From positions 930,001-994,000 of the forward strand of contig NZ_CP013200.1 in the NCBI RefSeq assembly GCF_001445575.1: a stretch of DNA of 64,000 bases, read 5' to 3'. The position numbers and the translations under genes were made by a program. The notes under the pieces are model-generated. The model was not told where the DNA came from. It did no database searches and worked only from the letters and a program-made list of their open reading frames with translations. Source of the stretch: Arthrobacter alpinus. Lineage in GTDB: Bacteria > Actinomycetota > Actinomycetes > Actinomycetales > Micrococcaceae. Of this stretch, positions 9,227-25,475 are shown one piece after another. How positions within the stretch are numbered: position 1 is the first letter of the stretch; every line of letters begins with the position of its first letter.

Positions 9227-11722
9227 ATGAGCCACCGTCTTGACCGCAGTCCGCACCCGTTGACCACGGCGAAAGTAACAGCTCAGCAGCTCTTGACGGA
9301 GTTGCCGGCCGCCTCCCAAACAACTGACGCGCACACCCTGTGTTTCGATGCTCCAGCGCAGGAATTCACACAGGCTCTGCCACTGGGCAATGGCCGGCTC
9401 GGAGCCATGTGTTACGGAGGGGTGGGCGGCGGGCGGATCACGCTCAACGATTCCACTGCCTGGTCTGGTGGGCCCGGCAGTGAGGCGGCCAATACGCGCG
9501 GTCTCAAGGATGGTCCGGCCACCATTGCCCGGGCGCGGGAGGCAGTGTCCGCGGGGCTGTTCACTGCTGCCGAAACCGAATTGGCCAAGGTAGCCACGGC
9601 GCATACACAAAGTTATTTGCCGTTTGCGGAGCTATTGCTCGAGCTGGACTTTGGTTCCGCTGCGCAGACTGCTGATGGCGCTGAGCCTGGCGTTGCCGCA
9701 TCCGCACAGCATTACCGCCGCACCCTGGATTTGCACAGCGCCCTGCATGAACACAGCTACACGGTGGCTGGCCGGAGCATCACCGAGCAGGTCTACGTCT
9801 CGCCCGCGCATCAGGTAATGGTGGTGGAGCTTCGCGTGACGGGCGAACCATTGCCTAAGGTCACGGCCGCCTTGGCCAGTCAGTTGCGCATCAAGGCCGC
9901 CACCTCGCACCCCGGGGCTGCCACCCTGGAGCTGCAACTCCCCACCAATGCGGCACCCGATTACGCCAACCCGCCCACCGGCGTCGAATATGACCAGCCC
10001 GGCCGGGAATCGTTGCGCGGTGCTGTGGTGGCGCACTGGATCCATGACGGCACGGAACTGTCTGGCGCAGAAGACCAGTACGACGCCGGGACGTTGGCTG
10101 CCGCTGGCGTCTCCCGTTTGCGCCTTGTGCTGGCCACTGCCACCAACTTTGTTGGCTCACACCTTCCCCTGGATCCTCAAGTTGGTGCCCCGCTCAAACA
10201 CGCCACCGAGTTGGTCCAGGCTGCCTCGAAGCTGACATCCACGGAACTCTTTCAATCTCACACCGCCAATCATCAGGAGCTGTACGAGCGGGCCGAACTG
10301 GATTTGGGTAGCCCCGCCGGTGATCCGGAACAGCCTACCGATGTCCGAATCCGTGAAACCCCGGCCGATCCCGCGCTCGCCGCTCTCCTGTTTAACTACG
10401 GCCGGTACTTGCTCATCAGTAGCTCCCGCCCCGGCACCCTGGCCAGCACCTTACAAGGCATCTGGAACGAGTCCATGCAGCCGCCGTGGAGTTCCAACTT
10501 CACCATCAATATCAACACTCAGATGAACTATTGGGCCGCCGAGGCCAGCAATTTGGCCGAGTGCCATGAGCCGCTTTTTGACCTCCTCGAGTCCCTCTCG
10601 CAGACCGGCCGGCACACGGCACGCACCGTTTATGGACTCGAGGGCTGGGTTGCGCACCACAACACGGATGCCTGGGCCTTCACCTCACCGGTGGCCGGCG
10701 ATGCCTCGTGGGGGTTCTGGCCCATGGGAGGTGCCTGGCTGGCCACCCACCTCATCGAACATGTGCGCCACGGCGGCAGCGAGCAGTTCGCAGCAGAACG
10801 CGCCTGGCCCATCATCAAGGGAGCCAGCGAATTCGCGCTGGGCTGGCTCATTCCGCAAGCCGACGGCACCTTGGGCACCTCCCCGTCCACCTCCCCGGAA
10901 AACCACTTCCAAACCGAGGATGGAACAATTGCCGCTGCTGGCCAGAGTTCCACAGCGGATCTGACCATCATCGCCCGGCTCTTCCGTGCGGCACTTGAGT
11001 TGGCGCCGGCAGGAGACCCTCTGACGCATCAGCTGGAGACGGCACTGGGGCGTTTGCCTCAAATCCCCGTGGCGCCGGACGGCACCATTTCAGAATGGGC
11101 TCAGCCCTATGACCAACCGGAACCAACGCACCGGCACGTCTCCCACCTCTACTTTGCCTATCCCGGCGAGACCGAGCTGACCCCGGATTTGGCACAAGCA
11201 GTAGCCCGCACGCTCGACGCCCGCGGCGATGATTCCACCGGCTGGTCGCTGGCCTGGAAACTGGCACTAAGGGCCCGGCTGAAGGACACCGTGGCCGTGG
11301 AGCGGCTCCTGGCCCTCGTTTTCCGGACCGCGGGGGAGCAGCATAGCCCCCATGCTGGCGGGCTCTACCCCAACATGTTTGCCGCCCATCCGCCCTTCCA
11401 AATCGATGGCAATTTTGGTTTTGTGGCAGGTGTTGTGGAGTGTCTGGTGCAAAGCCATACCGGGCACATTGAGCTGCTGCCAGCGGTTCCCTCCCTGTGG
11501 CCACAAGGTTCGGTGCGCGGCCTGGTGGTGCGCCCGGGAATCGTCCTGGATTTGAGCTGGGGCTCGGAAACGGGCACCCCCACACTGCTCTCGGCACGGC
11601 TGCGGGCCAAATCCAAGACCACAGCCGGGCCAGCGAGCGTCACCTGGGGTGAGCTAAGCGCCGCAGTGCATGTCAGTGACGAGGCGTGGACCGAGCTGAC
11701 CCCGGCAGATTTTTCCTCCTGA
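9227..11722 (+). CDS. GH95 family alpha-L-fucosidase
   Basis: 831 aa. GH95 enzymes are inverting alpha-1,2-L-fucosidases (some act on L-galactose). The N-terminal domain reads ALPLGNGRLGAMCYGG and RITLNDSTAWSGGPGS. The catalytic features of the family are visible: NININTQMNYW near residue 425 (the activating Asn pair), the Glu of STSPENHF near 555 and the Asp of QIDGNFG near 725. No signal peptide is present, so it probably acts in the cytoplasm on imported oligosaccharides. It is convergent with the GH31-GH42 operon; together these enzymes would remove fucose, xylose and galactose from xyloglucan fragments. Confidence 0.93.
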   Translation: MSHRLDRSPHPLTTAKVTAQQLLTELPAASQTTDAHTLCFDAPAQEFTQALPLGNGRLGAMCYGGVGGGRITLNDSTAWSGGPGSEAANTRGLKDGPATIARAREAVSAGLFTAAETELAKVATAHTQSYLPFAELLLELDFGSAAQTADGAEPGVAASAQHYRRTLDLHSALHEHSYTVAGRSITEQVYVSPAHQVMVVELRVTGEPLPKVTAALASQLRIKAATSHPGAATLELQLPTNAAPDYANPPTGVEYDQPGRESLRGAVVAHWIHDGTELSGAEDQYDAGTLAAAGVSRLRLVLATATNFVGSHLPLDPQVGAPLKHATELVQAASKLTSTELFQSHTANHQELYERAELDLGSPAGDPEQPTDVRIRETPADPALAALLFNYGRYLLISSSRPGTLASTLQGIWNESMQPPWSSNFTININTQMNYWAAEASNLAECHEPLFDLLESLSQTGRHTARTVYGLEGWVAHHNTDAWAFTSPVAGDASWGFWPMGGAWLATHLIEHVRHGGSEQFAAERAWPIIKGASEFALGWLIPQADGTLGTSPSTSPENHFQTEDGTIAAAGQSSTADLTIIARLFRAALELAPAGDPLTHQLETALGRLPQIPVAPDGTISEWAQPYDQPEPTHRHVSHLYFAYPGETELTPDLAQAVARTLDARGDDSTGWSLAWKLALRARLKDTVAVERLLALVFRTAGEQHSPHAGGLYPNMFAAHPPFQIDGNFGFVAGVVECLVQSHTGHIELLPAVPSLWPQGSVRGLVVRPGIVLDLSWGSETGTPTLLSARLRAKSKTTAGPASVTWGELSAAVHVSDEAWTELTPADFSS

Positions 11723-11731
11723 GACACAAAT

Positions 11732-11776
11732 AAGCGGGGTGTGTCTGCCGTGAATTCCGGCAGGCACACCCCGCTT
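11732..11776. terminator. Bidirectional terminator between GH95 and GH31 genes
   Basis: A 19-bp stem with one G-T mismatch (11732-11750 with 11758-11776), 7-nt loop, flanked by A-rich sequence on the left and a T-run on the right. It lies between the convergent stops at 11722 and 11795 and should stop both transcripts. Confidence 0.88.
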
Positions 11777-11794
11777 TTGCTCTTCCCTACCCGA

Positions 11795-13987
11795 TTAGCG
11801 TTCGACGGCGGTGACCTGGCTTGCGCCGCCGTCGACCTTGGTCACGGTGACATCGAAGAGCGCCGTTCCGCCGCTCTGAGTGGGGATCGAGACCACTGAC
11901 TGCTGCCCCTCGGAGGGGGCAAACGCGACGAACTCAACCTCCTTGTTCCACGCGTATTCGGGCCGGTCATTGACGGTTCCCAAGGGAAGAACCGCGCCGG
12001 GGCGGACATAGGTGGCGGCACTCAACACGGAGAACGTTTTGGTGTGCCACGCAGGTCCTTGCAGCTGCTCGCCGGTTTCCAAATGCGTCCAGGTGCCCTC
12101 GGGCAAGTAGAACTGAACGCTGCCGCTGGCATCCATCACGGGAGCTACCAACACGTCCGAGCCCAACATGTACTGCCGGTCCAGAGCCGCGCAACCCGGA
12201 TCCTGCGGGAACTCCAAGAACATGGGGCGCATCATGGGCGTCCCTGCCGTGTAAGCCTCCTCGGCACTGGCCAAGAGGTAAGGCATGAGTCGCATTTTCA
12301 GGTTGGTGAAATGTCGGAGGACGTCGCTGGATTCATCGTCCACCAGCCACGGCACTCGGTACGAGTTGGAACCGTGCAACCTCGAATGGGAGGAAAGCAG
12401 GCCAAAAGCAATCCAGCGCTTGAAGATGTCCGGATCCGGGGTACCTTCAAAACCGCCAATATCGTGGCTCCAGAATCCGAAGCCCGAAGAGGCCAAAGAC
12501 AAGCCACCTCGCAACGACTCGGACATGGCAGCGAACGTGGATTCGCAATCCCCGCCCCAATGAACAGGCAGCTTCTGCCCCCCAGCGGTGGCGGAGCGAG
12601 CAAACAGGACCGCCTCGCCGTGGCCCAGTTCCTTGGTCAGCAAGTCAAAGACCGTCTGGTTGTACAGCTGTGCGTAGTAGTTATGCATCCGCTCCGGGCT
12701 GGAACCGTCGTGCCAGCGCACCGTGGTGGGAATCCGCTCGCCAAAGTCGGTCTTGAAGGAATCCACGCCCTGGCCCATCAGAGTGCGGAGCTTCTCCTGG
12801 TACCAGCGGGCGGCTTCAGGATTGGTGAAATCAACCAGCGCCATGCCTGCCTGCCACATATCCCACTGCCAGATAGAGCCGTCCGCATTCTTGACCAGAT
12901 ACCCCAGCTCCATGCCCTCCTTGAACAGGTAGGAACGCTGAGCAATGTAGGGGTTGATCCACACACAGACCTTCAAGCCACGCTCGTGCAGACGTGACAA
13001 CATCCCCTCGGGGTCCGGGAAGGTGGCAGGGTCCCAAATGAAATCTGACCAGTGGAAGGCACGCATCCAATGGCAATCAAAATGGAAAACTGACAGCGGC
13101 AGGCCACGCTCTTCCATACCGTCAATGAAGGACATGACGGTTTCTTCGTTGTAGTTGGTGGTGAAGGAGGTGGAGAGCCACAGCCCGTAGGACCATGCGG
13201 GGATGCGCGAAGGGCGGCCGGTCAGCTCGGTGTAACGAGCCAAAATGTCCTTGGGGGTGTCCCCATGAATCACAAAGTACTGCAACTTCTGGCCCTCAAC
13301 GCTGAACTGCGTGCGTGAGACCACCTCGGAACCCACCTCGAAGGAGACCCGCTCCGGATGGTTCACGAAAACGCCGTAGCCGTTGTTCGTCAGGTAAAAC
13401 GGCACATTCTTGTAGGCCAGATCGCTGGAGGTTCCACCGTCTTCATTCCAGACGTCCACCGATTGGCCGTTCTTCACGAACGCGCCAAACCGCTCGCCTA
13501 AACCATACACATTGGTCCCCACACCCAAGGTGAGCTGCTCATGCACGTAGTTCTTTCCGGCAGCATCGGAAATCACGCCAATGCTCCTGGGGACCGAACT
13601 GGTAAGCACATGACCGCCGGCCATGAAGTCAACGCCCCAGTCGCCGTCGGTCTTGATCCGTGCGCTCAAGGCACCAGAGGTGTACACCGTCTGATTTTCT
13701 TCGATGGAGATGGTGACCTCGGGGTTGCCCTCCGCCACGTCAAAGTGCGGACCCAGATCGAGTGCCCCTTGAAAATGCTCAATCGTCACAGAGATGACAT
13801 CTTCTAGCGGGGAATCAAAAGTGATGGTCAGCTGCGGGCAGTTCAGCGCATCGCCACGAGCGTTGATGCGCTGGGTGGGAGCGAACACCTCGAGCTTGCT
13901 GCCGTCGGCAACAACCTCGGACACATCGCGCGGGTTCAAGGCTGTGATCCCAGGGCGGTGCAGCCAGTATCCGTCGGTGAATTTCAT
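11795..13987 (-). CDS. yicI: GH31 family alpha-xylosidase (YicI-type)
   Basis: 730 aa. It closely follows the YicI pattern: FKTDFGERIPTTVRWHDGSS near residue 412 carries the catalytic nucleophile Asp, and LPVHWGGDCES near 479 carries the acid/base Asp. YicI-type enzymes release alpha-1,6-linked xylose from isoprimeverose or from the non-reducing end of xyloglucan oligosaccharides. There is no signal peptide. Its ATG overlaps the last 4 bases of the GH42 gene (13984-13987), so the two are co-translated. Other GH31 activities (alpha-glucosidase) are less likely because of the GERIPT context. Confidence 0.93.
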   Translation of the reverse strand: MKFTDGYWLHRPGITALNPRDVSEVVADGSKLEVFAPTQRINARGDALNCPQLTITFDSPLEDVISVTIEHFQGALDLGPHFDVAEGNPEVTISIEENQTVYTSGALSARIKTDGDWGVDFMAGGHVLTSSVPRSIGVISDAAGKNYVHEQLTLGVGTNVYGLGERFGAFVKNGQSVDVWNEDGGTSSDLAYKNVPFYLTNNGYGVFVNHPERVSFEVGSEVVSRTQFSVEGQKLQYFVIHGDTPKDILARYTELTGRPSRIPAWSYGLWLSTSFTTNYNEETVMSFIDGMEERGLPLSVFHFDCHWMRAFHWSDFIWDPATFPDPEGMLSRLHERGLKVCVWINPYIAQRSYLFKEGMELGYLVKNADGSIWQWDMWQAGMALVDFTNPEAARWYQEKLRTLMGQGVDSFKTDFGERIPTTVRWHDGSSPERMHNYYAQLYNQTVFDLLTKELGHGEAVLFARSATAGGQKLPVHWGGDCESTFAAMSESLRGGLSLASSGFGFWSHDIGGFEGTPDPDIFKRWIAFGLLSSHSRLHGSNSYRVPWLVDDESSDVLRHFTNLKMRLMPYLLASAEEAYTAGTPMMRPMFLEFPQDPGCAALDRQYMLGSDVLVAPVMDASGSVQFYLPEGTWTHLETGEQLQGPAWHTKTFSVLSAATYVRPGAVLPLGTVNDRPEYAWNKEVEFVAFAPSEGQQSVVSIPTQSGGTALFDVTVTKVDGGASQVTAVER

Positions 13988-16008
13988 GAATAGACTCGAT
14001 TCTGCTTTTGTGAAAGTACTTTTGTCCCATATGGGGGAAGTGTGATGGTGGTGCTTGTGCCGAAGTTTCCGGGCAGTTCAACGGTGGAGAGGGTGGGGCC
14101 GTGATTGAGCAGGAACAGCTGATCCCCACGTTCCACAGCCTCAATATCGTCAGGTAGCCCCAACGGCACCGGCACTTGAATCCCGGCCGCGGCGACGGCG
14201 GACATGACAAGTGCTTCCAAGGCCTCGGCCGGGAGATCAGCACCCACGTACCAAGCCTCACCGGCACCCCACGGGTTCGCGGTGATGGCTGGTTTACCCG
14301 CCAAGCGCCCCACTCCGAAGTAGGCCAGGGTGCGCGTGTTGGGGCCGTGAAGTTCCAAATCTTCGGACCAGATCGATGCATGGATGTCCAGTAGTTGGGT
14401 ACCCGTCGATGAGCTGGTGAAGACGAGTGGCACGGGTTTGTCCAGGGGTAACCATTCCTCACCGGAGACACCCAGAACATCAGAGAGAGCTCCGGGGAAA
14501 CGGCCCGTGGCGAGTTTGGCTTCCTCATCGGCTACTGCGCTGAAGGGGCCCACCACCATGTGCCCGCCGTTGGAAACGTAGTGCTTCAACGCGGCGGCCT
14601 GTTGGCGGCCAAGAAGGAACAAGTTCGGCAGCAGGACCAGGTCAAAGCGGCCCAAGTTGGTGTCCGGATGCACCACTTCAACCGACAGGCCATGCCGCAA
14701 TAACGGCCGGTAGTAGGCCAGCAACTGCTCCATGACCTGCAACTTTTCAGAGGGGCGTGCCGTAGATTCTGCAGCCCACCAACTGGACCAGTCGAACAGG
14801 ATCGCAATTCGGGTTTGGCTCGGCGTCCCGGCCAGGGCGCCGAGCTGGGCCATGTAAGCGCCAAGTGCTGCCGCTTCGCGGAAAACGCGAGTTTTGCTGC
14901 CGGCCAGAGGGACCACCGCTGAATGGAACCGTTCGGCACCAAAAGAGGATTGACGGAACTGGAAGAAGCACACGCCATCGGCCCCACGGGCCACGGCTGA
15001 GAGTGCATCCACTTGCAATGCCCCTGGCTCCTTGGCCACATTGTGCCCTCGCCAATTCACCGCTGAGGTGGCTGATTCCATCAACAACCACGGTTTGCCA
15101 CCGCTGAGTCCACGGCACAGGTCATGGGTCAACGCGCCCAATTGCCACGACTGCGGATCGCCGGGATCCGTGTACCAGTCATTGGCAACAAAGTCCGTCT
15201 CGCGGGCCAAGGAGTTGTAGTCCATGCCGTGGAAGAAGCCCATCATGTTGGTGGTGATGGGATGGGTGGTGTCGTACCGCGAGATGATGTCCCGCTCCGC
15301 CTGAAACAAGGAGACAAGCTGATCCGAAGTAAACCGCTTGAAGTCCAGTTCCTGCCCAGGGTTTCCAATGTAGGGGGCGCTGCGTGGAGGCAAGATCTCG
15401 TCCCACGTTGAATACTGCTGGGACCAAAACGTGGTTCCCCAAGCATCATTGAGCCGCTCCAAGGTCACGTACTTGCCCATCAACCATTCACGGAATGCGC
15501 AGGCGCTCTCGTCGTCAAAACTGATCTGACCCAGCTCATTACCCACATGCCACATGGCCAGAGCCGGATGCTGGGCATAGCGTTCGGCAAGTTTGGCCGT
15601 AATGCTTGCGGCCGCTGCGCGGTACTTGGGCGATGAAGGGTTGAACTGATTGCGGGAGCCGTACCAAAGGGTGTGGCCCGCGGCATCGGTGGGCAGTGTT
15701 TGTGGATACAGTTTCCCCAGCCAGGGTGGCGGGGATGCTGTGGGTGTTGCGAGACTGACCCGAATCCCGCCTGCATGAAGCAGACCCAACACCTCATCGA
15801 GCCACGTGAAGTTCCACTGGCCTTCTTCGGGCTCGAGCTGAGCCCAGCTGAACACACCCACTGTGACCAGGTTGATCCCGGCTTCCTTCATGAGCGCAAC
15901 ATCAGTTGGCCAGCTTGCCTTGGGCCACTGCTCCGGGTTGTAGTCGGCACCAAAGATGAGTCCTTCACCCGGCATGGACGAGGCCAGTCCAAGTTGCTGC
16001 CTGTTCAT
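13984..16008 (-). CDS. GH42 family beta-galactosidase
   Basis: 674 aa from the ATG at 16006-16008, with GGAAGGAA about 5 bases upstream. The start FGADYNPEQWP, the segment GVFSWAQLEPEEG and the PTASPPPWL loop are typical of GH42. The acid/base Glu lies in HVGNELGQ near residue 157 and the nucleophile Glu in LLMESATSAVNW near 310. The enzyme would release terminal beta-galactose from imported oligosaccharides in the cytoplasm. It is the first gene of the minus-strand pair GH42-GH31 and is divergent from lacI, with an operator-like palindrome in between. Confidence 0.94.
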   Translation of the reverse strand: MNRQQLGLASSMPGEGLIFGADYNPEQWPKASWPTDVALMKEAGINLVTVGVFSWAQLEPEEGQWNFTWLDEVLGLLHAGGIRVSLATPTASPPPWLGKLYPQTLPTDAAGHTLWYGSRNQFNPSSPKYRAAAASITAKLAERYAQHPALAMWHVGNELGQISFDDESACAFREWLMGKYVTLERLNDAWGTTFWSQQYSTWDEILPPRSAPYIGNPGQELDFKRFTSDQLVSLFQAERDIISRYDTTHPITTNMMGFFHGMDYNSLARETDFVANDWYTDPGDPQSWQLGALTHDLCRGLSGGKPWLLMESATSAVNWRGHNVAKEPGALQVDALSAVARGADGVCFFQFRQSSFGAERFHSAVVPLAGSKTRVFREAAALGAYMAQLGALAGTPSQTRIAILFDWSSWWAAESTARPSEKLQVMEQLLAYYRPLLRHGLSVEVVHPDTNLGRFDLVLLPNLFLLGRQQAAALKHYVSNGGHMVVGPFSAVADEEAKLATGRFPGALSDVLGVSGEEWLPLDKPVPLVFTSSSTGTQLLDIHASIWSEDLELHGPNTRTLAYFGVGRLAGKPAITANPWGAGEAWYVGADLPAEALEALVMSAVAAAGIQVPVPLGLPDDIEAVERGDQLFLLNHGPTLSTVELPGNFGTSTTITLPPYGTKVLSQKQNRVYS

Positions 16009-16127
16009 GAATTTCCTTCCAAATTGGATCGGTTCACTCGAATGTGATGATCATAATTTCGATAAATTGTGTGCATTAGGGTCGATTTGGTCTCAGTAGA
16101 TGCTTATAAACAGGTACCGTTTGGTAT

Positions 16128-16139
16128 CGAAGCGCTTCG
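16128..16139. promoter_or_regulatory. LacI-type operator in the GH42/lacI divergent promoter region
   Basis: CGAAGCGCTTCG is a perfect 12-bp palindrome with a central CG, the classic form of LacI/GalR operators. It lies between the divergent GH42 (start 16008) and lacI (start 16193) genes. A close variant lies upstream of the sugar-binding protein gene at 21077-21090. Confidence 0.75.
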
Positions 16140-16192
16140 CTTGAATTACCAGCTACTGTTATGAAGTTTGCGGTTGTGAAAAGGAGAGTTGC

Positions 16193-17206
16193 ATGGCCAC
16201 CATGAACGATGTCGCCCGGGCGGCCGGAGTATCTACCAGCACGGTGTCATACGTGCTCAGCGGCAAGCGGACCATCTCCCCGGATACTCGGGCGCAGGTG
16301 CTGGCCGCCATTGAAAAACTTGGTTACAGCCCCCACGCGGGCGCTCGTGCCCTGGCGTCCAACCGGTCCAACGTGCTGGGCCTCATGGTTCCTTTGCGGG
16401 AAGACGTAAATGTCAGCGTCGTCATGCAGTTTGTTTCCGCCGTGGTCACCACAGCCCGAACCTTCGAACAAGACGTGCTGTTGCTGACCCAGGATGACAT
16501 TGACGGGATTGCCCGGGTGATGTCCCAATCCATCGTGGACGGCATGATCATGATGGACATCGAAGCCAAAGATCCGAGGGTGCCGCTGCTTGCCAAAATG
16601 CGTAAGCCAGCCGTCCTGATTGGACTGCCCGACGACGCCCAAGGACTCAGCTGCGTAGATTTCGACTTCGCCGCAGCGTCCCGAGTAGCCGTCCGCCACT
16701 TGGTGGAACTGGGCCATCGGCGTTTGGCGCTGATTGGCTCCCCGCAGGCATCGCTGGAACGCCACGCGACCTACGCGGACAGGGTCCGTAACGGTTTCGA
16801 AGCGGCCGCGAGTGCAGCCAACGTGGACTTTGCCAGCCGCGCCTGTGAACCTACAGCTGCGGCTCTGTCCGAAGCCCTGAAGGATCTGGTCACGGGAGTC
16901 GATGCGGCCACCGGGCTGGTAGTGCATAACGAATTCCTGCTCCCGATGTTGCGCGACACCCTGACGGAGATGGGACTGAGCGTCCCTGCGGATGTCTCGG
17001 TGGTAGCCATCGCCCCCACCGACGTTGCCATGGCCAGCACGGCTCCGTGGACCGCCGTCAGCATCCCCGCCCATGACATTGGCCGGACCGCCGTCGAAAT
17101 GGTCATGGAACGGATGCTCACGGAAAAGCCAGCGGAGGTGCGGCTCATTGTTCCGAGTCTGGTCCAGCGCGTAACCACGGCTCCGGCTCAGGCCAGCGGC
17201 GCCTAG
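16193..17206 (+). CDS. LacI family transcriptional regulator of the sugar locus
   Basis: 337 aa. The N-terminal helix-turn-helix and hinge read MNDVARAAGVSTSTVSYVLS and ALASNRSNVLGLMVP, standard for LacI/GalR repressors. The remainder is a periplasmic-binding-like sensor domain (GHRRLALIGSP, VSVVAIAPTDVA). GAGAG precedes the ATG. It sits between the GH42-GH31 operon and the ABC importer operon, and palindromes of LacI type occur in the promoters on both sides. It is therefore the probable local repressor, released by an oligosaccharide or sugar from the pathway. Confidence 0.94.
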   Translation: MATMNDVARAAGVSTSTVSYVLSGKRTISPDTRAQVLAAIEKLGYSPHAGARALASNRSNVLGLMVPLREDVNVSVVMQFVSAVVTTARTFEQDVLLLTQDDIDGIARVMSQSIVDGMIMMDIEAKDPRVPLLAKMRKPAVLIGLPDDAQGLSCVDFDFAAASRVAVRHLVELGHRRLALIGSPQASLERHATYADRVRNGFEAAASAANVDFASRACEPTAAALSEALKDLVTGVDAATGLVVHNEFLLPMLRDTLTEMGLSVPADVSVVAIAPTDVAMASTAPWTAVSIPAHDIGRTAVEMVMERMLTEKPAEVRLIVPSLVQRVTTAPAQASGA

Positions 17207-17226
17207 CCCGGTGTGGCCCAGGTTAG

Positions 17227-17258
17227 CGGGGTCCAGTGCAATCAGGCTCCGGACCCCG
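17227..17258. terminator. Possible weak bidirectional terminator
   Basis: CGGGGTCC (17227-17234) pairs with GGACCCCG (17251-17258) across a 16-nt loop, in the 74-bp gap between the convergent lacI and permease genes. No T-run follows on either side. Confidence 0.4.
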
Positions 17259-17280
17259 GCAGGCTGGCTGGATGCGAACA

Positions 17281-18225
17281 TTAGCCCTTCACCGCACCAA
17301 TCATGACGCCCTTGGTGAAGTGCTTCTGCACAAACGGGTACACGAACAGGATCGGCACCATGGCCACCACAATCACGGCCATCTGCAAGGCCAGTGACGC
17401 CGCGACACCCTGTCCCACGGAGATCTGGCCAGGCACGGAAACACCCTGCAGCACGTAGGAACGCAGCACCACCTGGAGCGGATTCTTTGAGCTGTCATTG
17501 ATGTACAAGATGGCGTTGAAGAAAGCATTCCAGTAGCCCACACCGTAAAATAGTGCGATCACAGCGGTGACGGCCTTGGACATCGGCAACACGATCTGGC
17601 CCAAAATGCGCCACTCGCTAGCGCCATCAATGCGGGCGCTGTCAAGGATGCCCTGATCGATGCCCATGAAGAAGCCGCGCAGGATGATGATGTTGAAGAC
17701 GGAGATACAACTGGGCAGGATCAGTGCCGCGTAGCTGTCGATCATGCCCAAGCCGGAGACCAGCAAATAGGACGGGATCATGCCGGCGGCAAAGAACATG
17801 GTGATCAGCAGAACGAACAGCAACGGGGTGTGGGCGAGCGTACCGGGTCGGGAAAGGCCGTAGGCGCACAGCACCGAAACCACCAAACTCAAGATTGTGC
17901 CCACGGCGGTAATGCCAACGCTGACCATGATGGCTCGCGTGACAACCCCTCCCGTGAAGATTTGCCGGTACGCGTCCCAAGAGATTTCACCCGGGATAAT
18001 AACCAGTCCGCCAGCGTTGGTGATGGTTGCCTGGGTGGAGATGCTGGTCAAAACAATGGTGTAGAGCGGTAGCAGGACTGCCAAGACAACAATGATGAGC
18101 GTTGTTGTTTTAGCCACCTTCATCACCGGTGTGGGGGCTTCCTCCCATGCGGCACGTTCCGGGGCCTCCTTGCGCGGCCAACGAAGTCCAGTGGATTGCT
18201 TGTGTGGCTTTGAAATGGTGGTCAT
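17281..18225 (-). CDS. Carbohydrate ABC transporter permease (YtcP/LplC-like, CUT1)
   Basis: 314 aa with about six transmembrane helices. The MalG/YtcP-type EAA loop is visible as DSARIDGASEWRILGQIVLP. LPLYTIVLTSIS lies near the N-terminus and PILFVYPFVQKHFTKGVMIG at the C-terminus, both typical of the second permease of oligosaccharide importers. It overlaps the preceding permease gene by 4 bases (18222-18225). It forms the channel of an importer together with the next upstream gene; no ATPase gene is in the operon, as usual for importers that share a MsmK-like ATPase. Confidence 0.93.
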   Translation of the reverse strand: MTTISKPHKQSTGLRWPRKEAPERAAWEEAPTPVMKVAKTTTLIIVVLAVLLPLYTIVLTSISTQATITNAGGLVIIPGEISWDAYRQIFTGGVVTRAIMVSVGITAVGTILSLVVSVLCAYGLSRPGTLAHTPLLFVLLITMFFAAGMIPSYLLVSGLGMIDSYAALILPSCISVFNIIILRGFFMGIDQGILDSARIDGASEWRILGQIVLPMSKAVTAVIALFYGVGYWNAFFNAILYINDSSKNPLQVVLRSYVLQGVSVPGQISVGQGVAASLALQMAVIVVAMVPILFVYPFVQKHFTKGVMIGAVKG

Positions 18226-19286
18226 GACTTGGAATACACCCCTGCTTCTCCGAATAGATGAGCTACCTTGTTGGCCCCGAGGATAAGAGCCAGTGAGACC
18301 AGGCCCTTGAGTAGACCGGCCGCTGCTGCGTAGCTCCAGTCACCGTTTTGCACACCTGTGTAGTACACGAAGGTGTCCAGTACTTCCGAGGCTCCGGCAC
18401 CCACAGCATCGCGCTGCAGGATCAGCTGTTCGAAGCCGACCGAGAGTGAATCACCCAGACGGAGAATCAACAGCAAGATGATGACCGGGCGCAAGCCGGG
18501 CAAGGTGACATGCCACATGCGTTTCCAACGGCCGGCACCGTCCACGGCTGCCGCCTCGTACTGTGACGGGTCAATGGCGTTCAGCGCCGCGAGGAACACG
18601 ATCATGCCCCATCCGGCGTCCTTCCAAATGCTCTGCGAGGTGATCAGGAACAAGAAGGTGTCCGGGTTGGTCATGATGTCCATGCCCTGCCAGCCGTTGG
18701 CCAGCAGTTGCTGGTTCAACAACCCGGCGCCACCCAAGATCTGCTGGAACACAGCAACCACCAGGACCCACGAGAAGAAATGAGGCAGGTAGACAATGGC
18801 CTGAATGGTGGCACGCACTGCTGGGCTAACCAGCGAGTTGAGCAGGATTGCCAAGAAGATGGGAATGGGAAAGAAGAAGAACAACTGGAATGCCGTGATC
18901 ACCAGAGTGTTCTTGACGGCCAACCAGAAATTGGTATCGGTCAGTACCCGCACAAAGTTATCTAAACCTACCCATGGGCTGTCCGGGATTCCCACGAAGG
19001 GTGAGTAGTCCTGGAACGCCACTACGTTGCCCAAGATGGGGACGTAGGCGAAGACTGCCAGCAATAGCACTGCGGGCAGGGTCATGAAGATCAAGGACTT
19101 GTCCCGGCGGAACCGGGCCTTCAGGCCCAGCCCTGCCCTCACTTCCTGCTTCACCTTGGGACCCTTGGAAGAGGAGCGACGGCGCTTGGGGCCTCCGGTA
19201 GCCGCACCTTCGCCGGAGTCCACGGTCCCGGAGGAGGCAGCTGCCTCCTTTGTCAGTAGGGTTTCCATGGAACGCTGCCCGCTCAC
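18222..19286 (-). CDS. Carbohydrate ABC transporter permease (LplB-like, CUT1)
   Basis: 354 aa. A basic, Ser/Lys-rich cytoplasmic N-terminus of about 60 residues (with RRRSSSKGPKVK) is followed by about six helices. Typical LplB-type features are LPAVLLLAVFAYVPILGNVVAFQ (helix 1), QYEAAAVDGAGRWKRMWHVT (EAA loop) and LPGLRPVIILLLILRLG. It works with the YtcP-like permease as a heterodimeric channel. Both ends overlap neighbouring genes by 4 bases (19283-19286 and 18222-18225), showing tight translational coupling in the order binding protein, LplB-like, YtcP-like. Confidence 0.93.
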   Translation of the reverse strand: MSGQRSMETLLTKEAAASSGTVDSGEGAATGGPKRRRSSSKGPKVKQEVRAGLGLKARFRRDKSLIFMTLPAVLLLAVFAYVPILGNVVAFQDYSPFVGIPDSPWVGLDNFVRVLTDTNFWLAVKNTLVITAFQLFFFFPIPIFLAILLNSLVSPAVRATIQAIVYLPHFFSWVLVVAVFQQILGGAGLLNQQLLANGWQGMDIMTNPDTFLFLITSQSIWKDAGWGMIVFLAALNAIDPSQYEAAAVDGAGRWKRMWHVTLPGLRPVIILLLILRLGDSLSVGFEQLILQRDAVGAGASEVLDTFVYYTGVQNGDWSYAAAAGLLKGLVSLALILGANKVAHLFGEAGVYSKS

Positions 19287-20956
19287 GCGCTCAGGAATCC
19301 GGTGTAGAACTCACGGAGCTCATCGCCACCGTTCTTCTTCCACGTGGCAAGTGCGGCATCCAGATCGCTGATCTTTTTGCGGCCGCGGGCAATATCCATG
19401 GCCAGGTCGTCGAACGGCTTGCTGAGTGAGCCGAACTTGGCGGGCTCCTCGATTTGCAGACCGAAGAACTGCTCCTCGACGACAAACGGCGCCTGGCGTG
19501 CTTCCCACTCGCTGGCCGACTCCACATAGCCCGGGTACTGAACCTTGGAATTGACGATGGGGGAGTTGACCAGGAATGCATAGGTGCTGGTCACTTCGGC
19601 AAGGCCCTTGTCCGTTGACTGCGGGATGTTGTTCTCATCCTTCTTGAAGTGCACGCCTTCAACGCCGTAGTTGATGAGTTGGTATTCCTGGGTACCAAAC
19701 GGCGCGGCAATAAAGTTGGCCACCGCGAGCAATTCCTCGATCTTGGCCTTGTCGTCGTTTTTCTTGATGAAGCTGAAAATGCTGGCGGGAGCACCTGCGA
19801 ACAAGGTGGGCTTGCCGCCGTCGGGAGCGAAGAAGTCCATCGGCTGCATGTCGTACTTGGGGTTGGTGGGCAGCATGCGTGCCAGGGATTCGTGCCAGCT
19901 GCCGAGCCCGTCAGTGGCCATGAGTGAGGCTCCGGATTCAAAGCGGGCCTTGGACTGCTGCAAGTTCCCGGCAACTGCATCCGGGTGAACGGCTCCGGAG
20001 GCAAAGAGTTTCGCGGTCCATTCCAAGGCGGCGCGGTATTCGTCCGTTTCGACCTTGTTCACGAGGGCGCCGTCAACCAGTGCCCACTTCGGAGCGACAC
20101 CGAACATGAGCTGGGCGCCGTTCCAAGCATCTTCAGAACCCCAGCGCTTCTTGGCGGGATTGGTCAATTCCTTGGCGATCTCAATGTACTCGTCCGCGGT
20201 CTTGGGGGCTTCAAGGCCGAGCTCGGTGAAGATGTCCTTGCGGTAGAACATGGCGTTTGTGAGCAGCGTGGAGGGGTAGGGCAGGCCGTAGAGGCCACCG
20301 GCAAAGGAACTGAATTTCCAGGCCGCGGTGGGTAGATTGGCCAGATTCGGGTATTTCTTGATTTTGTCGCCGGACAGGTAGGGCGCGAGGTCCTCGAATA
20401 CGCTGGTCACGGCCTGGCTGAAGCGGGGAGGAAGGTTCCAGGAAGGGATGACTACCCAATCCGGGACGTCCTTGGGAGAAGCCAGAACCGTCTGGATCTT
20501 ATCGCCGTAAGTGTTGCCATCATTGACCTGGAAATCGATGGTGGCACCGAGCTCCTTGTTGACTGCCTGGTAGTAGCTGTTGCTGGCCAGCGCCGGGGGA
20601 ACGGTCCACCACGCGGGGGTCATGGCCTTGTAGCTGCCGCCCTTGCCCGGCACTTCCGTGACAGACTTGACTAGGGTCTTCGGGATGGTGGTGAACCCGG
20701 GGGTGGAGCCGTTGACGCCGGCAATATCTGGAGTGACCAGACTGATGGGAATGTAGCTGGGGACCACCTTAGCTACCGAATCAGCCAGGCCAAGAGAAGA
20801 AGTGACCTGAGCCTTTCCCGCACCATTTCCGCAGGCCGTCAGAACTGCGGCGGTGCTGAGTGCGACGGCAGAGATGCCGGCGAGACCCAGAAAAGACCGG
20901 CGATTCAGACCATTTGTATCTGGACTGGCCGTTGCTACCTGGCGATTTTTCCTCAT
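19283..20956 (-). CDS. Extracellular sugar-binding lipoprotein of the ABC importer (Tat signal)
   Basis: 557 aa. Residues 18-42 carry a twin-arginine motif (NRRSFLGLAG) and a lipobox ending LTAC with Cys42, so the protein is predicted to be exported by Tat and lipid-anchored outside the membrane. The rest is a large LplA-like (family 1) solute-binding protein; proteins of this size usually bind long oligosaccharides. GGAGTG lies 8-9 bases before the ATG on the minus strand. It is the first gene of the importer operon. The presumed ligand, inferred from neighbours, is a xyloglucan-type oligosaccharide. Confidence 0.93.
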   Translation of the reverse strand: MRKNRQVATASPDTNGLNRRSFLGLAGISAVALSTAAVLTACGNGAGKAQVTSSLGLADSVAKVVPSYIPISLVTPDIAGVNGSTPGFTTIPKTLVKSVTEVPGKGGSYKAMTPAWWTVPPALASNSYYQAVNKELGATIDFQVNDGNTYGDKIQTVLASPKDVPDWVVIPSWNLPPRFSQAVTSVFEDLAPYLSGDKIKKYPNLANLPTAAWKFSSFAGGLYGLPYPSTLLTNAMFYRKDIFTELGLEAPKTADEYIEIAKELTNPAKKRWGSEDAWNGAQLMFGVAPKWALVDGALVNKVETDEYRAALEWTAKLFASGAVHPDAVAGNLQQSKARFESGASLMATDGLGSWHESLARMLPTNPKYDMQPMDFFAPDGGKPTLFAGAPASIFSFIKKNDDKAKIEELLAVANFIAAPFGTQEYQLINYGVEGVHFKKDENNIPQSTDKGLAEVTSTYAFLVNSPIVNSKVQYPGYVESASEWEARQAPFVVEEQFFGLQIEEPAKFGSLSKPFDDLAMDIARGRKKISDLDAALATWKKNGGDELREFYTGFLSA

Positions 20957-21076
20957 AATGTGTCACTCCTTTGTGATGGCGTGTGCCATTGATTGATCCG
21001 TTGTGGCGCTGTTCCCGCATGGGATTCACGAGGTCTAGGCGCTCGAAGCAAGCGAGGGAAATCTGTTGAAATAGTG

Positions 21077-21090
21077 TCGATGCGCTTCGA
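21077..21090. promoter_or_regulatory. LacI-type operator upstream of the ABC importer operon
   Basis: TCGATGCGCTTCGA is a 14-bp palindrome with one mismatched pair and shares GCGCTTCG with the site at 16128. It lies about 120 bp upstream of the binding-protein start (20956), in the region divergent from the GH3 gene. Confidence 0.65.
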
Positions 21091-21185
21091 TTGATTTGAT
21101 TCTAGGTTACGTGACACCCGTCACGCAACATTGACTTTTCTTCTGTAAATATATGAAAAATTGGTGTAACAATAGAACTCAATCC

Positions 21186-21195
21186 CTTGCGCAAG
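21186..21195. promoter_or_regulatory. LacI-like palindrome upstream of the GH3 gene
   Basis: CTTGCGCAAG is a perfect 10-bp palindrome with central CG, followed by CGTTT, and lies 36 bp upstream of the GH3 ATG at 21232. It resembles a LacI-family site but differs from the other two in its outer bases, so it may bind the local regulator weakly or another LacI-type protein such as a CcpA-like one. Confidence 0.4.
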
Positions 21196-21231
21196 CGTTT
21201 AAACATAAAACACCTTTCCGGAGAAACCACC

Positions 21232-22512
21232 ATGACTCAACCTGTCGCCATGACCACTCCTGCTCCCGAGCCCGCCAGCCATGAGCCCGCCAACAATGAG
21301 CAGTCCGGCAGCAGCCCTGAACAGTTATTGACGCAGTTGAGTCCGGCGGAGAAGGTTGCCATGTTGCACCAGCATTCACCGGCCGTGGAACGGCTGGGGA
21401 TCGCCGCCTTCCAGACGGGCACCGAGGGTGCCCACGGGGTTGCCTGGTTGGGAAAGGCGACTGTTTTTCCGCAGCCGGTGGGGTTGGCTGCCACATGGGA
21501 TGAGGACCTGCTGCAGCGCGTTGGGCAGGCTGTAGGACGTGAGGTACGGGCCAAGCACCAAGAGAATCCCTCGATCAGCCTCAACGTGTGGGCTCCCGTG
21601 GTCAACCCGTTGCGGCACCCGCTGTGGGGCAGGAACGAGGAGGGATTCTCCGAAGATCCCGTGCTGACCGGCCAGCTTGCGGGCGCCTTCTGCCATGGCC
21701 TGCGCGGAAATGACCCGGACCGGTGGCAAACGGTGCCAACCCTGAAGCACTTCCTGGGCTACAACAACGAGGTTGATCGCAATGTCTCCTCCTCGCAGCT
21801 GCGGGCCAGGGTCCTGCACGAGTACGAGTTGCCCGCCTACAGCACGCCCATCGCCGGCGGTGCGGTGGGCGCCGTCATGCTTTCCTACAATCTGGTCAAC
21901 GGAATGCCGGCCCACGTCTCGGACCTGGTGGCGGAGCACTTGCGTCAGTGGCCCGGGGGAGCGGATCTGGCGATCGTGACTGACGCTGGAGCGCCCACCA
22001 GCCTGTACAAGGCCGAGAAATATTTCCCCGACGCCCCTGCAGCCTATGCCGCAGCGCTGCTAGCCGGTGTGGACAATTTCACCGACGATGGCGCCGATTC
22101 AGCGCCCTCTATTGCCCATGTGGAAGCTGCTCTGGAGCGTGGACTGATCACCATGGAGCATGTCGATGCGAGCGTTTTGCGCATGCTGCGCCTCCGTGCG
22201 GCAACGGGGGAGTTCAGCGAGGAGACGCCCGCAGCGCAGTCCGGTGCCGAAGTTGCGGAGCAGGCGGCTGCCCACCGGGCGCTGGCTCGCGAAGCAGCTG
22301 CAAAATCTGTGGTCCTGCTGGCCAATAATGCCGTTTCACCTGTGGGGGAAGGTTCGACGGCGGGCCCGCTCCTGCCGCTTTCGGCGGACCTTGCTCAGGT
22401 GGCAATCATTGGTGGATTGGGGACTCACGTGCTGACCGATTGGTACAGCGGGACGCCAGAATATGCGCTCAGTGTAGCCGTTGGTCTAGGCGAAATCTAC
22501 CCGCCGCGTTGA
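21232..22512 (+). pseudogene. GH3 beta-glucosidase, 5' fragment cut by an insertion sequence
   Basis: About 426 residues, ending at a TGA that spans the IS boundary (22510-22512). The start is the ATG at 21232 with GGAGA upstream; the frame is open from 21187. It contains the GH3 N-terminal TIM-barrel: FQTGTEGAHGVAWLG, NVWAPVVNPLRHPLWGRNEE, VPTLKHFLGYNNE, and LAIVTDAGAPTSL with the likely nucleophile Asp. The beginning of the C-terminal sandwich domain is also present (VAIIGGLGTHVLTDWYSG). The remainder continues at 23868 in frame after removal of the IS and one CCGCGT copy. No signal peptide is present. Confidence 0.88.
22504..22509. repeat. Left copy of the candidate 6-bp target duplication (CCGCGT)
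   Basis: CCGCGT at 22504-22509 recurs at 23862-23867 on the other side of the IS. Joining the two flanks at this hexamer gives a continuous reading ...EIYPPRVQTVGGHD... across the GH3 gene. Such a short match alone would be weak; the restored frame makes it credible. The true duplication could be shorter. Confidence 0.65.
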
Positions 22513-22519
22513 CTCATCA

Positions 22520-22565
22520 AAGATGCCCGCGTAGCTGCTATCGAAGAATCATTTGGTAATGCCCG
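22520..22565 (+). repeat. Left inverted repeat of the IS
   Basis: 46 bp that match the reverse complement of 23799-23844 at 38 positions, including an identical 17-bp outer block and the block GAATCATTTG. Confidence 0.85.
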
Positions 22566-22616
22566 TCTAGCGGCGCGTCTGTCGTGCTGGTTGTTGCTGG
22601 CGGGGCACTGTGAGCC

Positions 22617-23846
22617 ATGGAGCTTTTGATGAGTCAACGTCAGGCGATCACGAAGGCCAGCGCTCTTCGGTATTCCCGTTCGAGCAGGTCTGCCAAGAAG
22701 ACCATTTTGGATGAGTTGTGTGCGGTGACGGGCTGGCACCGGGACCATGCGCGCAAGGCGCTGCGGCAGGCCCTGGTACTCAAGGTGGTCAAGGTGAGGC
22801 CTCCCCGGCCACCACTGTACGGTGAGACCGTGATCGAAGCGTTGAGGTTCTGCTGGGCCGTTCAAGGCACACCCTGCGGCAGGTTGCTGGCGGCTGCCCT
22901 ACCGGACCTTGTGCCCCGGCTGCGCCGGTTCAAGGAACTGGCCATAGATGATGTGACGGCGGAATTGTTGTTGCGGATTGCCCCGGCCACGATCGATCGG
23001 CGACTCAAGGCCGATCGGGGCAAGCTTGACCCGCGAGGGCGTTCGCATACCAAGCCGGGGACGTTGTTGAAGGACTTCATTCCGGTGCGGACCTGGGCCG
23101 AGTGGGACGACGCTGTTCCGGGGTTTGTCGAGATTGATTTGGTTGGTCATGAGGGTGGCAATTCGAAGGGTGAGTTCTGTTTCACCCTGGATATCACTGA
23201 CATCGCCACGGGATGGACCGAGACCCGCTCGGTGAAGAACAAAGCCCAGAAATGGGTATTCGCGGCCATCAAGGACGCCACCGCTGCCTTCCCGTTTCCG
23301 ATCCTGGGGATCGATTCGGACAATGGGAGCGAGTTCATCAACTGGGAGCTGTTCCGTTGGTGTGAGCAGGAGAATTTGACGTTCACCAGGTCCCGGTCCG
23401 GGAACAAGAATGACGGTGCGCATGTAGAGCAGAAGAACTGGCATATCGTCCGTCAGACCGTCGGCTACCACCGCTACGACACGGCCGCGGAGTTGGAGTT
23501 GCTGAACCAGATTTGGGCGCTTCAACGCCTACTAACGAACCACTTCGGCCCGCAGCAGAAACTCGTCAAGAAGGTCCGCACGGGGGCGAAGATCAGCAAG
23601 AAGTATGACCTGCCAGCCACCCCGTATCAACGCGTCCTAGCTGACACAGGAACCGTGAAGAAGACGGTCAAGACGAAGTTGACCAAAGAGAACAAACCCT
23701 TAAATCCAGCGGCCATCCAACGCCAGCTCCAAAGCCTCGCCGGCGAACTGCTGACCCTGACAACGGCAAAGCAAGGCCCTAAGCCTCAACCATCCCTGCG
23801 GGCAATATCAAATGATTCCACGAAGAAAGCTACGCGGGCATCTTGA
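22617..23846 (+). CDS. IS transposase, DDE type with integrase (rve) core
   Basis: 409 aa (405 from the in-frame ATG at 22629). The N-terminal part is helical and DNA-binding-like (KTILDELCAVTGWHRDHARK). The catalytic core follows: FVEIDLVGHEGGNSKGEF with the first Asp, ILGIDSDNGSEFIN with the second, and GAHVEQKNWHIVRQ with the Glu. The C-terminus is basic. The stop codon lies in the right inverted repeat region (23844-23846). The start region overlaps one arm of a 15-bp inverted repeat (22625-22639) whose partner is at the left IS end. It looks intact and may be active. Confidence 0.9.
   Translation: MELLMSQRQAITKASALRYSRSSRSAKKTILDELCAVTGWHRDHARKALRQALVLKVVKVRPPRPPLYGETVIEALRFCWAVQGTPCGRLLAAALPDLVPRLRRFKELAIDDVTAELLLRIAPATIDRRLKADRGKLDPRGRSHTKPGTLLKDFIPVRTWAEWDDAVPGFVEIDLVGHEGGNSKGEFCFTLDITDIATGWTETRSVKNKAQKWVFAAIKDATAAFPFPILGIDSDNGSEFINWELFRWCEQENLTFTRSRSGNKNDGAHVEQKNWHIVRQTVGYHRYDTAAELELLNQIWALQRLLTNHFGPQQKLVKKVRTGAKISKKYDLPATPYQRVLADTGTVKKTVKTKLTKENKPLNPAAIQRQLQSLAGELLTLTTAKQGPKPQPSLRAISNDSTKKATRAS
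23799..23844 (-). repeat. Right inverted repeat of the IS
   Basis: Partner of the left repeat at 22520-22565. It contains the last codons and the first base of the stop codon of the transposase gene. Confidence 0.85.
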
Positions 23847-23861
23847 CATGATTCCCCGGGC

Positions 23862-25475
23862 CCGCGTGTTCAAACGGTGGGCGGACACGATGTGGTTGCC
23901 CTGCGCAGCATCCGGACGGGCCGCTACCTCGGAACTGCTGCCGAGAATGAATCCCTTGCGGCAACCTCGGCCACCGCCGGTGCCGATCAGCTCTTTGAAT
24001 TACAGGATTGGGGTGGCGGGGAAGTTACCTTGCGGGCACGCAGTAACTCGCTCCTGCTGGCCGCTGGGAATGACGGTTACCTTTACCCCAGTGCCACCCG
24101 GGTGGGCGGCTGGATTGTGCAGGAGACCTTCCGCCTCCATCGGGACAGCGACGGCAGTGTCCGGATCCAACACGTCGGCACAGGAAAATGGGTTCACATC
24201 GAGGCGCACACAGGCAGCGCCCTGCTGGTGGCTGGCGATATCGAGGTGGCTGACCGCTTCACGCTCCGCATCCAGGAGAACGGTTTAGAAGCAGTGGCGG
24301 CAGCGGCTGCCCAGGCGAGTGTGGCCGTCGTCGTGGTTGGCAATGATCCGCACTTGGGTGGACGGGAGACGTTGGATCGCAGCAGCCTGGAATTGTCGCA
24401 GCGCGATCAGGAAATGGTCAGGGTAGCGCGGGAGGCGAATCCCAACACCGTGCTGGTGATTGTTTCCTCCTACCCCTATGCCTTGGGTGACTTGGCGGAT
24501 ACGCCGGCCATTGTGTGGACCTCCCATGCCGGTCAGGAGCTGGGGCATGGCGTAGCGGATGTGCTTTCCGGAGCTGTGGAACCCTATGGCCGACTGCCGC
24601 AAACGTGGTTTGCTCACGATGGCGATCTGCCAGATATTTTGGACTACGACATCATTTCAGGTGGCGGAACCTACCAGTATTCGCGCGCCGAACCCTTGTA
24701 TCCCATGGGTCACGGACTCGGCTATTCAACGGTGGAGTACAGCGATCTCTTGGTGACAGACCACGGCGATGCCTGGCTGGAAGCATCGCTGACGGTCCGC
24801 AATACCGGTGCCCGTGAGCTGGCCGAGCTGGTGCAAATTTATGCGGCCGCGCCGGATCACCGCTTCGAATTCCCGCGCCGCCTGCTGCTTGGCCATACCA
24901 GAGTCTTGCTGGCCGCCGGCGAAGAGCGGGTAGTCAAGGTAGCCATTGCTCGCGAGCGGTTGGCCACGTTCAGCGTCACCTCCCTGGCGATGCTGACCGA
25001 GCCGGGGGAGTACATTTTCCTCGCTGGACGGTCGGCGCAGAACCTGCCGCTCTCGGCTAGTTTGGTGTTGACCGGGGCGGGCAGTTGCGACCGGGCGCCC
25101 GGGGACGCCATCCGTGCAGAGCACTTCGATGCTGCGCAAGGGGTGGAACTGGTGCCGGAAACACACCTCGCTGGCACGGCTATTAAGGTTGCGTCGGGGC
25201 ATCGTTCAGCGCTGGCGTACTACAAGAACTGGTCCGCGCTACCTGCTGGGCCGGGTGAGCTACGGGTGCTCGACGGCGGCAGCGGACGGGTCAGTTTTGA
25301 ACGCGCTGGAGCGGCTGGGACATGGCTGCCGTGGCTGACAGTGGATGTACCTCTAGGCTCTGGCGGGGTCATCGACTTTGATCTCCCAACGGTGGGCAAC
25401 GGCCTTCCTGCCGATCTTCGCGTAGGGATCTCCGGGGACGTGACGCTGGTGGCGTTGCGTCTGGGCAAGCACTAA
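23862..25475 (+). pseudogene. GH3 beta-glucosidase, 3' fragment with fascin-like and C-terminal carbohydrate-binding-like domains
   Basis: The frame enters from the IS side at CCGCGT and continues PRVQTVGGHDVVALRSIRTG. A beta-trefoil, fascin-like domain (about 24-26 strands; GRYLGTAAENESL, LLLAAGNDGYLY, GKWVHIEAHTGSALLVAGD) sits where many GH3 proteins carry a PA14 insert. The GH3 C-domain then resumes (VAVVVVGNDPHLGGRETLDR, ALGDLADTPAIVWTSHAGQE, GHGLGYSTVEYSDL), followed by a fibronectin-III-like domain and a CBM6-like C-terminus. A GTG at 23877 could start a 532-aa product, but without the barrel it would not be a working glucosidase. Confidence 0.85.

Follow-up and report, generated by a model that had tools for sequence, protein, structure and literature searches.

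Gene content of the locus

A stretch of 64,000 nucleotides from Arthrobacter alpinus (contig NZ_CP013200.1, positions 930,001 to 994,000 of the forward strand; hereafter the window) carries, between positions 9227 and 25475, a cluster of glycosidase, sugar uptake and regulatory genes (Table 1). With a probability of about 0.74, this locus imports xyloglucan oligosaccharides and degrades them in the cytoplasm, its GH3 gene being interrupted in this genome by an IS481-like insertion. Genes were called from the list of open reading frames (ORFs), their translations, and Pfam and NCBIfam scans of the window ORFs. The scans recovered the GH95, GH42 and YicI-type GH31 glycosidases, the LacI regulator, the CUT1 importer and the large Tat-like lipoprotein where the first-pass annotation had placed them. 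That annotation had also called the locus complete, with exactly the four exo-activities of GH95, GH42, GH31 and GH3. The first three genes and the assignment to the GH3 family stand, but GH3 is not a single gene here, being split by an element of 1357 bp, and the locus is not complete.

Table 1 Features of the locus, in window coordinates
Feature	Position	Strand	Basis or remark
GH95 glycosidase (alpha-L-fucosidase family)	9227..11722	+	Pfam PF22124, 1.2e-146
Inverted repeat separating the convergent GH95 and GH31 genes; may serve both as a terminator	11732..11776		Repeat and role read by eye
GH31 YicI-type alpha-xylosidase	11795..13987	-	NCBIfam NF007940; phmmer against solved YicI structures
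GH42 beta-galactosidase	13984..16008	-	Pfam PF02449/PF08532; matches solved GH42 beta-galactosidases
LacI-type operator-like site TCGAAGCGCTTCGC, between GH42 and lacI	16127..16140		Motif search
LacI-family regulator	16193..17206	+	Pfam PF00356, PF13377
CUT1 permease, MalG/UgpE side	17281..18225	-	Pfam and NCBIfam
CUT1 permease, MalF/UgpA side	18222..19286	-	Pfam and NCBIfam
Solute-binding lipoprotein (SBP), 557 aa, with Tat-like N-terminus and lipobox	19283..20956	-	Pfam; motifs read in translation
LacI-type operator-like site TCGATGCGCTTCGA, between SBP and GH3	21077..21090		Motif search
GH3 gene, 5' part (N-terminal domain)	21232..22503	+	ATG at 21232 preferred over listed TTG at 21187; frame is closed by a stop codon within the insertion
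Putative target-site duplication CCCG, left copy	22500..22503		Empty-site reconstruction
IS481-like insertion sequence, 1357 bp	22504..23860	+	Ends from similarity to G007 and G015 copies; inverted repeats
Transposase (rve integrase core, weak IS481-family match), 409 aa, open frame	22617..23846	+	Pfam/NCBIfam
Putative target-site duplication CCCG, right copy	23861..23864		Empty-site reconstruction
GH3 gene, 3' part (GH3 C-terminal and Fn3-like domains; weak beta-trefoil match at start)	23865..25475	+	Pfam

The GH31 protein scored 1213 bits against the alpha-xylosidase equivalog NF007940 (cut-off 606) and matched solved YicI structures over its full length at about 960 bits. Its D414 and D480 align with D416 and D482 of YicI, which we take to be the nucleophile and the acid/base, so that the catalytic acids are retained. 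At the N-terminus of the SBP an RRSFLG motif and an LTAC lipobox were read. The predicted fold of this protein resembles those of oligosaccharide-binding proteins, a fold class that indicates no particular ligand, and the absence of the xyloglucan SBP 9PMY among the fold matches listed is uninformative either way. No obvious signal peptide-like N-terminus was seen on the glycosidases by eye, no predictor having been run, in agreement with the cytoplasmic location proposed earlier. An ABC importer is thus present together with GH31 and GH42 enzymes that appear cytosolic on inspection. Neither an ABC ATPase nor a TonB-dependent transporter was found among the locus genes scanned, the CUT1 importer being present instead of the latter; CUT1 importers commonly share an ATPase encoded elsewhere.

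Interruption of the GH3 gene

The GH3 N-terminal domain was located by Pfam on the ORF at 21187-22512 and the C-terminal domain on the ORF at 23877-25475, with an rve transposase ORF between them. Reconstruction of the empty site, leaving one copy of CCCG, gave a single colinear GH3 frame of 960 codons with no internal stop, which rules out two separate GH3 genes. The rejoined protein is identical to the single-ORF GH3 of a genome of the same genus (G001) at 722 of 963 alignment columns (75%), and GH3 is one ORF in 19 of the 20 related loci compared below (934-1105 codons from the first possible start), the remaining one being cut by a contig end. An intact GH3 beta-glucosidase gene is thus a usual member of the locus that is missing here. 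A weak match to a ricin-type beta-trefoil, below the cut-off, was noted at 23877-24080, at the start of the C-terminal part; a trefoil-like domain may be inserted in the GH3 of this locus.

The ends of the element were set by similarity to copies in two other genomes (88% in G007; 89-90%, in two pieces, in G015), which begins at 22504 and stops at 23860. Close to these ends is a pair of inverted repeats (22520-22565 and 23799-23844), each of 46 nt, with 83% complementarity. A plasmid search returned nine records at 60-80% identity to the element, three of which begin at 22503-22505 and agree with the left end. As another of the matches extends to 23868, 8 bases beyond 23860, the true right end may lie a few bases away from the one given. 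A 6-bp duplication, CCGCGT, was considered at the flanks and dropped, since the element ends in other genomes give CCCG. The family label is loose, the IS481 model matching the transposase at 33.9 bits against a cut-off of 224.

That the interruption is an artefact of assembly is very improbable. The evidence comes from one genome, without reads, but no second full copy of the element was found in the 4.33-Mb genome, making repeat confusion unlikely, and a 4-bp flanking repeat with a colinear empty site is what transposition leaves. Elsewhere in the genome a 38-bp stretch (2959223-2959260) is 89% identical to one end of the element; the element itself is absent there, and the stretch is possibly a remnant or solo end.

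In comparisons with G001, the ratio of nonsynonymous to synonymous substitution rates (dN/dS) was 0.102 and 0.103 for the two GH3 parts, 0.098 for the SBP, 0.101 for LacI, 0.078 for GH42, 0.043 for one permease and 0.158 for part of GH95, at dS values of 1.0-1.9 that are near saturation. As the GH3 frame shows no second lesion despite that divergence, the insertion looks young relative to the separation from G001.

Conservation and synteny

Orthologues of the SBP (E <=1e-80) were found in 21 of 395 genomes of the family, from 5 of its 32 genera, that of A. alpinus included; within this genus, 2 of 23 genomes have the GH31 of the locus (E <=1e-100). The locus was fetched from each of the other 20 family genomes with an SBP orthologue for comparison. 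The SBP, both permeases, LacI, GH3 and GH31 occur together in every one, with GH31 always at the LacI end, and GH42 lies between LacI and GH31 in 15. The five loci without GH42 at this place belong to genus g31 (L110, L111, L112, L113, L116); three of them hold a different GH42-like gene (39-43%) in the fetched stretch.

In a wider contig search 80 loci were kept, of which the first 12 (L029-L040) were mapped; the other 68 were short partial SBP matches and were not used. Four Arthrobacter loci had the core (L029, L030, L033 and L036, of which two run into contig ends), and parts of it were present in Actinacidiphila, Lentzea, Allorhizocola and Rhizocola (L034, L035, L037, L038). The SBP stood alone in L031, L032 and L039, while L040 was a weak SBP match accompanied by other permeases. 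The SBP of the window is 69-71% identical to those of the Arthrobacter loci. The locus is real and conserved in actinobacteria, and the earlier statement that loci of this composition are known mainly from Bacteroidetes, clostridia and xanthomonads needs widening, the core occurring in five genera of this family and partly in other actinobacteria.

Arthrobacter sp. ISL-48 and A. rhizosphaerae carry a second SBP (L031 and L032), 69-70% identical to that of the window and without the locus permeases or glycosidases nearby; these genomes also hold the locus itself (L033, L036). GH31 and GH95 look frameshifted in the relatives G001 (L109, 955-5600) and G327 (L120, 1730-16434), a feature that was kept out of the evidence since sequencing error or decay is possible. 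The G+C content is 58.6-60.1% across the locus (window positions 12001-24000) and 60.8-68.5% from 24 kb onward; the low value, with the patchy spread of the locus in the genus, would fit a past transfer. Upstream of the locus, at 6131-8491, lies a gene for an accessory SecA-like protein of 786 aa with SecA DEAD, P-loop and scaffold domains.

LacI operator-like sites

Allowing up to 2 mismatches, the motif TCGAAGCGCTTCGA occurs three times in the window against 0.24 expected, and none of 100 shuffles reached three. One site lies in the gap between GH42 and lacI, one in the gap between the SBP and GH3 genes, and the third (TCGAATCGCTTCGC, 56052-56065) inside a dehydrogenase E1 alpha gene, where it is likely due to chance and was not taken as part of a regulon. 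A LacI-type site TCGAAnCGnTTCGA is present between the SBP and GH3 genes in 20 of 20 relatives with at most one mismatch (ninth base free, either strand), and 18 of them (all except L123 and L125) have an operator-like site with at most two mismatches in the gap between LacI and the divergent gene beside it. A pattern fitted to the three sites of the window gave three matches in the whole genome, all within the window, and its reversed control none. The motif was found after looking at the sequence, and a looser form, TCGAANCGNTTCGA, with two free bases and 2 mismatches, tells against it, as it is not enriched in the window (4 sites against 2.14 expected; 17 of 100 shuffles reach 4). The motif is regarded as a strong lead to the LacI operator rather than as proof of LacI binding.

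GH95 and its fit to the locus

The GH95 catalytic domain (Pfam) was recognized together with the Asn pair and the acid Glu. Alignment to 4ufc (T370, N372, N374, E501), with roles taken from the part of PMC4491172 available, gave N428, N430 and E558 as putative catalytic residues and T426 at the Thr/His position of the -1 site. According to the accessible text of PMC8245568 this polymorphic position does not decide between fucose and L-galactose, and the preference of the GH95 for one or the other cannot be told from its sequence.

GH95 had been presented as an integral part of the locus. It is indeed enriched in genomes with the locus, occurring in 18 of 21 against 27 of 374 others of the family (Fisher 3e-16, with no correction for kinship). 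Three observations weigh against full membership: within the genus the difference is not significant (2 of 2 locus genomes against 10 of 21 others, p 0.48), GH95 lies inside the fetched stretch in only 5 of the 20 relatives, and in the window it forms a convergent unit of its own with no operator-like site upstream within 2 mismatches. A site near the GH95 start of one relative (L128) was discarded, as it falls inside coding sequence. GH95 is thus the loosest member of the locus.

Substrate of the locus

Genes of the xyloglucanase family GH74 were found at three homologous loci. One adjoins GH42 at the Rhizocola hellebori locus (1008 bits with a solved GH74 structure), another lies between a permease and GH42 inside the Actinacidiphila oryziradicis locus, and the third lies about 0.1 kb past the fetched locus of a genome of the same family (G042), after a GH1 gene. 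All three proteins have a signal-like or Tat-like N-terminus as judged by eye. In the distant loci chosen ORFs were scanned, hence no GH74 rate is claimed, and the link stands without a background rate. The GH74 neighbours, the conserved operator-like site and the biochemically tested precedent of Ruminiclostridium cellulolyticum together strengthen the joint substrate proposed in the first-pass annotation, and xyloglucan oligosaccharides are the most likely substrate.

Several results count against this assignment. Twenty of the 21 locus genomes, that of A. alpinus among them, gave no hit with a GH74 query, and GH12, GH5 and GH9 gave no match in the A. alpinus genome (GH16, GH44 and GH45 were not searched). 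As none of these four families was found, the strain probably depends on oligosaccharides released by other organisms. The Lentzea homologue has no GH31 in its fetched stretch and adjoins a lyase of rhamnogalacturonan I (RG-I), of the RGL11 type, and two GH43 genes; the Actinacidiphila homologue has no GH31 or LacI match in its stretch. Because of this gene content, distant members of the group may differ in substrate.

The same observations bear on the idea that the native substrate is another galactose- and xylose-bearing plant oligosaccharide, such as RG-I side chains, arabinogalactan or complex xylan with L-galactose, and that the GH74 neighbours reflect later repurposing. The surroundings of the Lentzea homologue and the lack of GH74 in most locus genomes would suit it, as would a protein near GH31 in one relative (L122) whose C-terminal domain is of the alpha-L-arabinofuranosidase type and the report, in the part of PMC4491172 available, that a GH95 can be an L-galactosidase active on corn xylan. 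Set against these are the invariable GH31 at the LacI end in the family, here a YicI alpha-xylosidase equivalog, the GH74 neighbours in three separate lineages, and the combination of GH31, GH3 and GH42, which is the set tested in R. cellulolyticum (PMC4780118, in part). Another native substrate is accordingly judged quite unlikely.

Proposed pathway and its predicted block

The observed gene families, synteny, site conservation and insertion with its flanking duplication allow a scheme for the use of xyloglucan oligosaccharides to be drawn up. The lipoprotein and CUT1 permeases would take up oligosaccharides, probably released by other organisms. Inside the cell GH95 would cleave off the terminal L-fucose (or L-galactose), GH42 the galactose thus exposed, and GH31 the alpha-xylose at the non-reducing end, after which GH3 would remove the backbone glucose exposed by GH31, the last two enzymes acting in alternation. 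Through the TCGAAnCGnTTCGA sites LacI would act as a repressor of the importer, GH3, GH42/GH31 and its own gene.

In R. cellulolyticum, following the available part of PMC4780118, cytosolic GH42, GH31 and GH3 enzymes act on imported xyloglucan oligosaccharides: Gal42A takes off the galactose, Xyl31A converts XXXG to GXXG, and Glu3A, which does not act on XXXG, splits off the glucose that has become exposed and is needed for further breakdown. By analogy with that scheme, interruption of GH3 is expected to halt breakdown after the side chains and the first xylose (XXXG to GXXG), unless another beta-glucosidase substitutes.

Five other GH3 genes in the A. alpinus genome bear on such a substitution, by which the pathway would be complete even though the locus is not and the insertion would be neutral. 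One of them, a multidomain protein (L134), scored 1069 against a cut-off of 1050 with the NCBIfam beta-xylosidase/alpha-L-arabinosidase equivalog and also matched an isoprimeverose-producing enzyme (369 bits); it might replace the broken GH3 and is a possible stand-in, which speaks against the predicted block. The Xanthomonas system likewise draws its GH3 from outside the locus (PMC8245568, in the portion available). However, L134 is only 28-30% identical to the locus GH3 and its best match is a beta-xylosidase, and the other four fit a beta-N-acetylhexosaminidase model best, although none reaches its cut-off and L136 fits a glucosidase model nearly as well; GH1 was not searched. Replacement of GH3 by another enzyme is therefore considered possible, though doubtful. 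A GH3-family gene near the locus (30272-32251) was set aside as a replacement, since its product, which has a long C-terminal extension, resembles beta-N-acetylhexosaminidases.

A bolder proposal is that the locus belongs to a regulon for xyloglucan oligosaccharides, so far undescribed in actinobacteria and with a LacI operator of its own, and that the strain has changed from a full consumer to a side-chain trimmer, which imports whole oligosaccharides and takes fucose, galactose and one xylose from each while a GXXG-type backbone accumulates or is excreted; it is viewed as unlikely. Among the records listed from the open-licence literature, no title or opening of an abstract described such a locus in Arthrobacter or other actinobacteria.

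The locus provides Arthrobacter-like actinobacteria with a xyloglucan-oligosaccharide system that can be tested, together with a predicted site for its regulator. A further lesson is that a catalogue of families does not equal a complete pathway, the backbone enzyme being broken in this genome, and the broken strain and its intact relatives provide a natural comparison with and without GH3.

Comparison with known systems

The GH31 of the window shares its catalytic acids with E. coli YicI, but F308 of YicI is replaced by H, and the yicI gene context presumably differs from that of the window locus.

The Xanthomonas xyloglucan utilization locus (XyGUL), as far as the text of PMC8245568 available extends, resembles the A. 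alpinus locus in having GH31, GH95 and a beta-galactosidase step for fucogalactoxyloglucan, its GH95 also carrying Thr at the polymorphic position; its beta-glucosidase comes from outside the locus, as may be needed here. It differs in its TonB-dependent uptake, GH35 in place of GH42, a GH74 within the locus and a GH31 with a PA14 domain. In Anaerocellum bescii, Athe_2052-2057 likewise comprise a CUT1 importer and GH31 for xyloglucan oligosaccharides, with the ATPase encoded elsewhere, whereas GH42 is distant from the importer genes and a putative fucosidase lies only in the neighbourhood (PMC12710961, a preprint, in the part available).

Similar in design is the R. cellulolyticum system (Xyl31A, Glu3A, Gal42A), in which, by the available portions of PMC4780118 and PMC8576529, intact oligosaccharides enter through an ABC importer and are degraded by cytosolic GH42, GH31 and GH3 enzymes without signal peptides. 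That system has a two-component regulator (XygS/XygR), secreted endo-xyloglucanases and a working GH3, whereas the window locus has LacI with an operator-like site, no GH74, GH12, GH5 or GH9 found in its genome, an interrupted GH3, and GH95 in the locus. The design is already known from R. cellulolyticum, and the A. alpinus locus is an example of it from an actinobacterium, carrying a young lesion.

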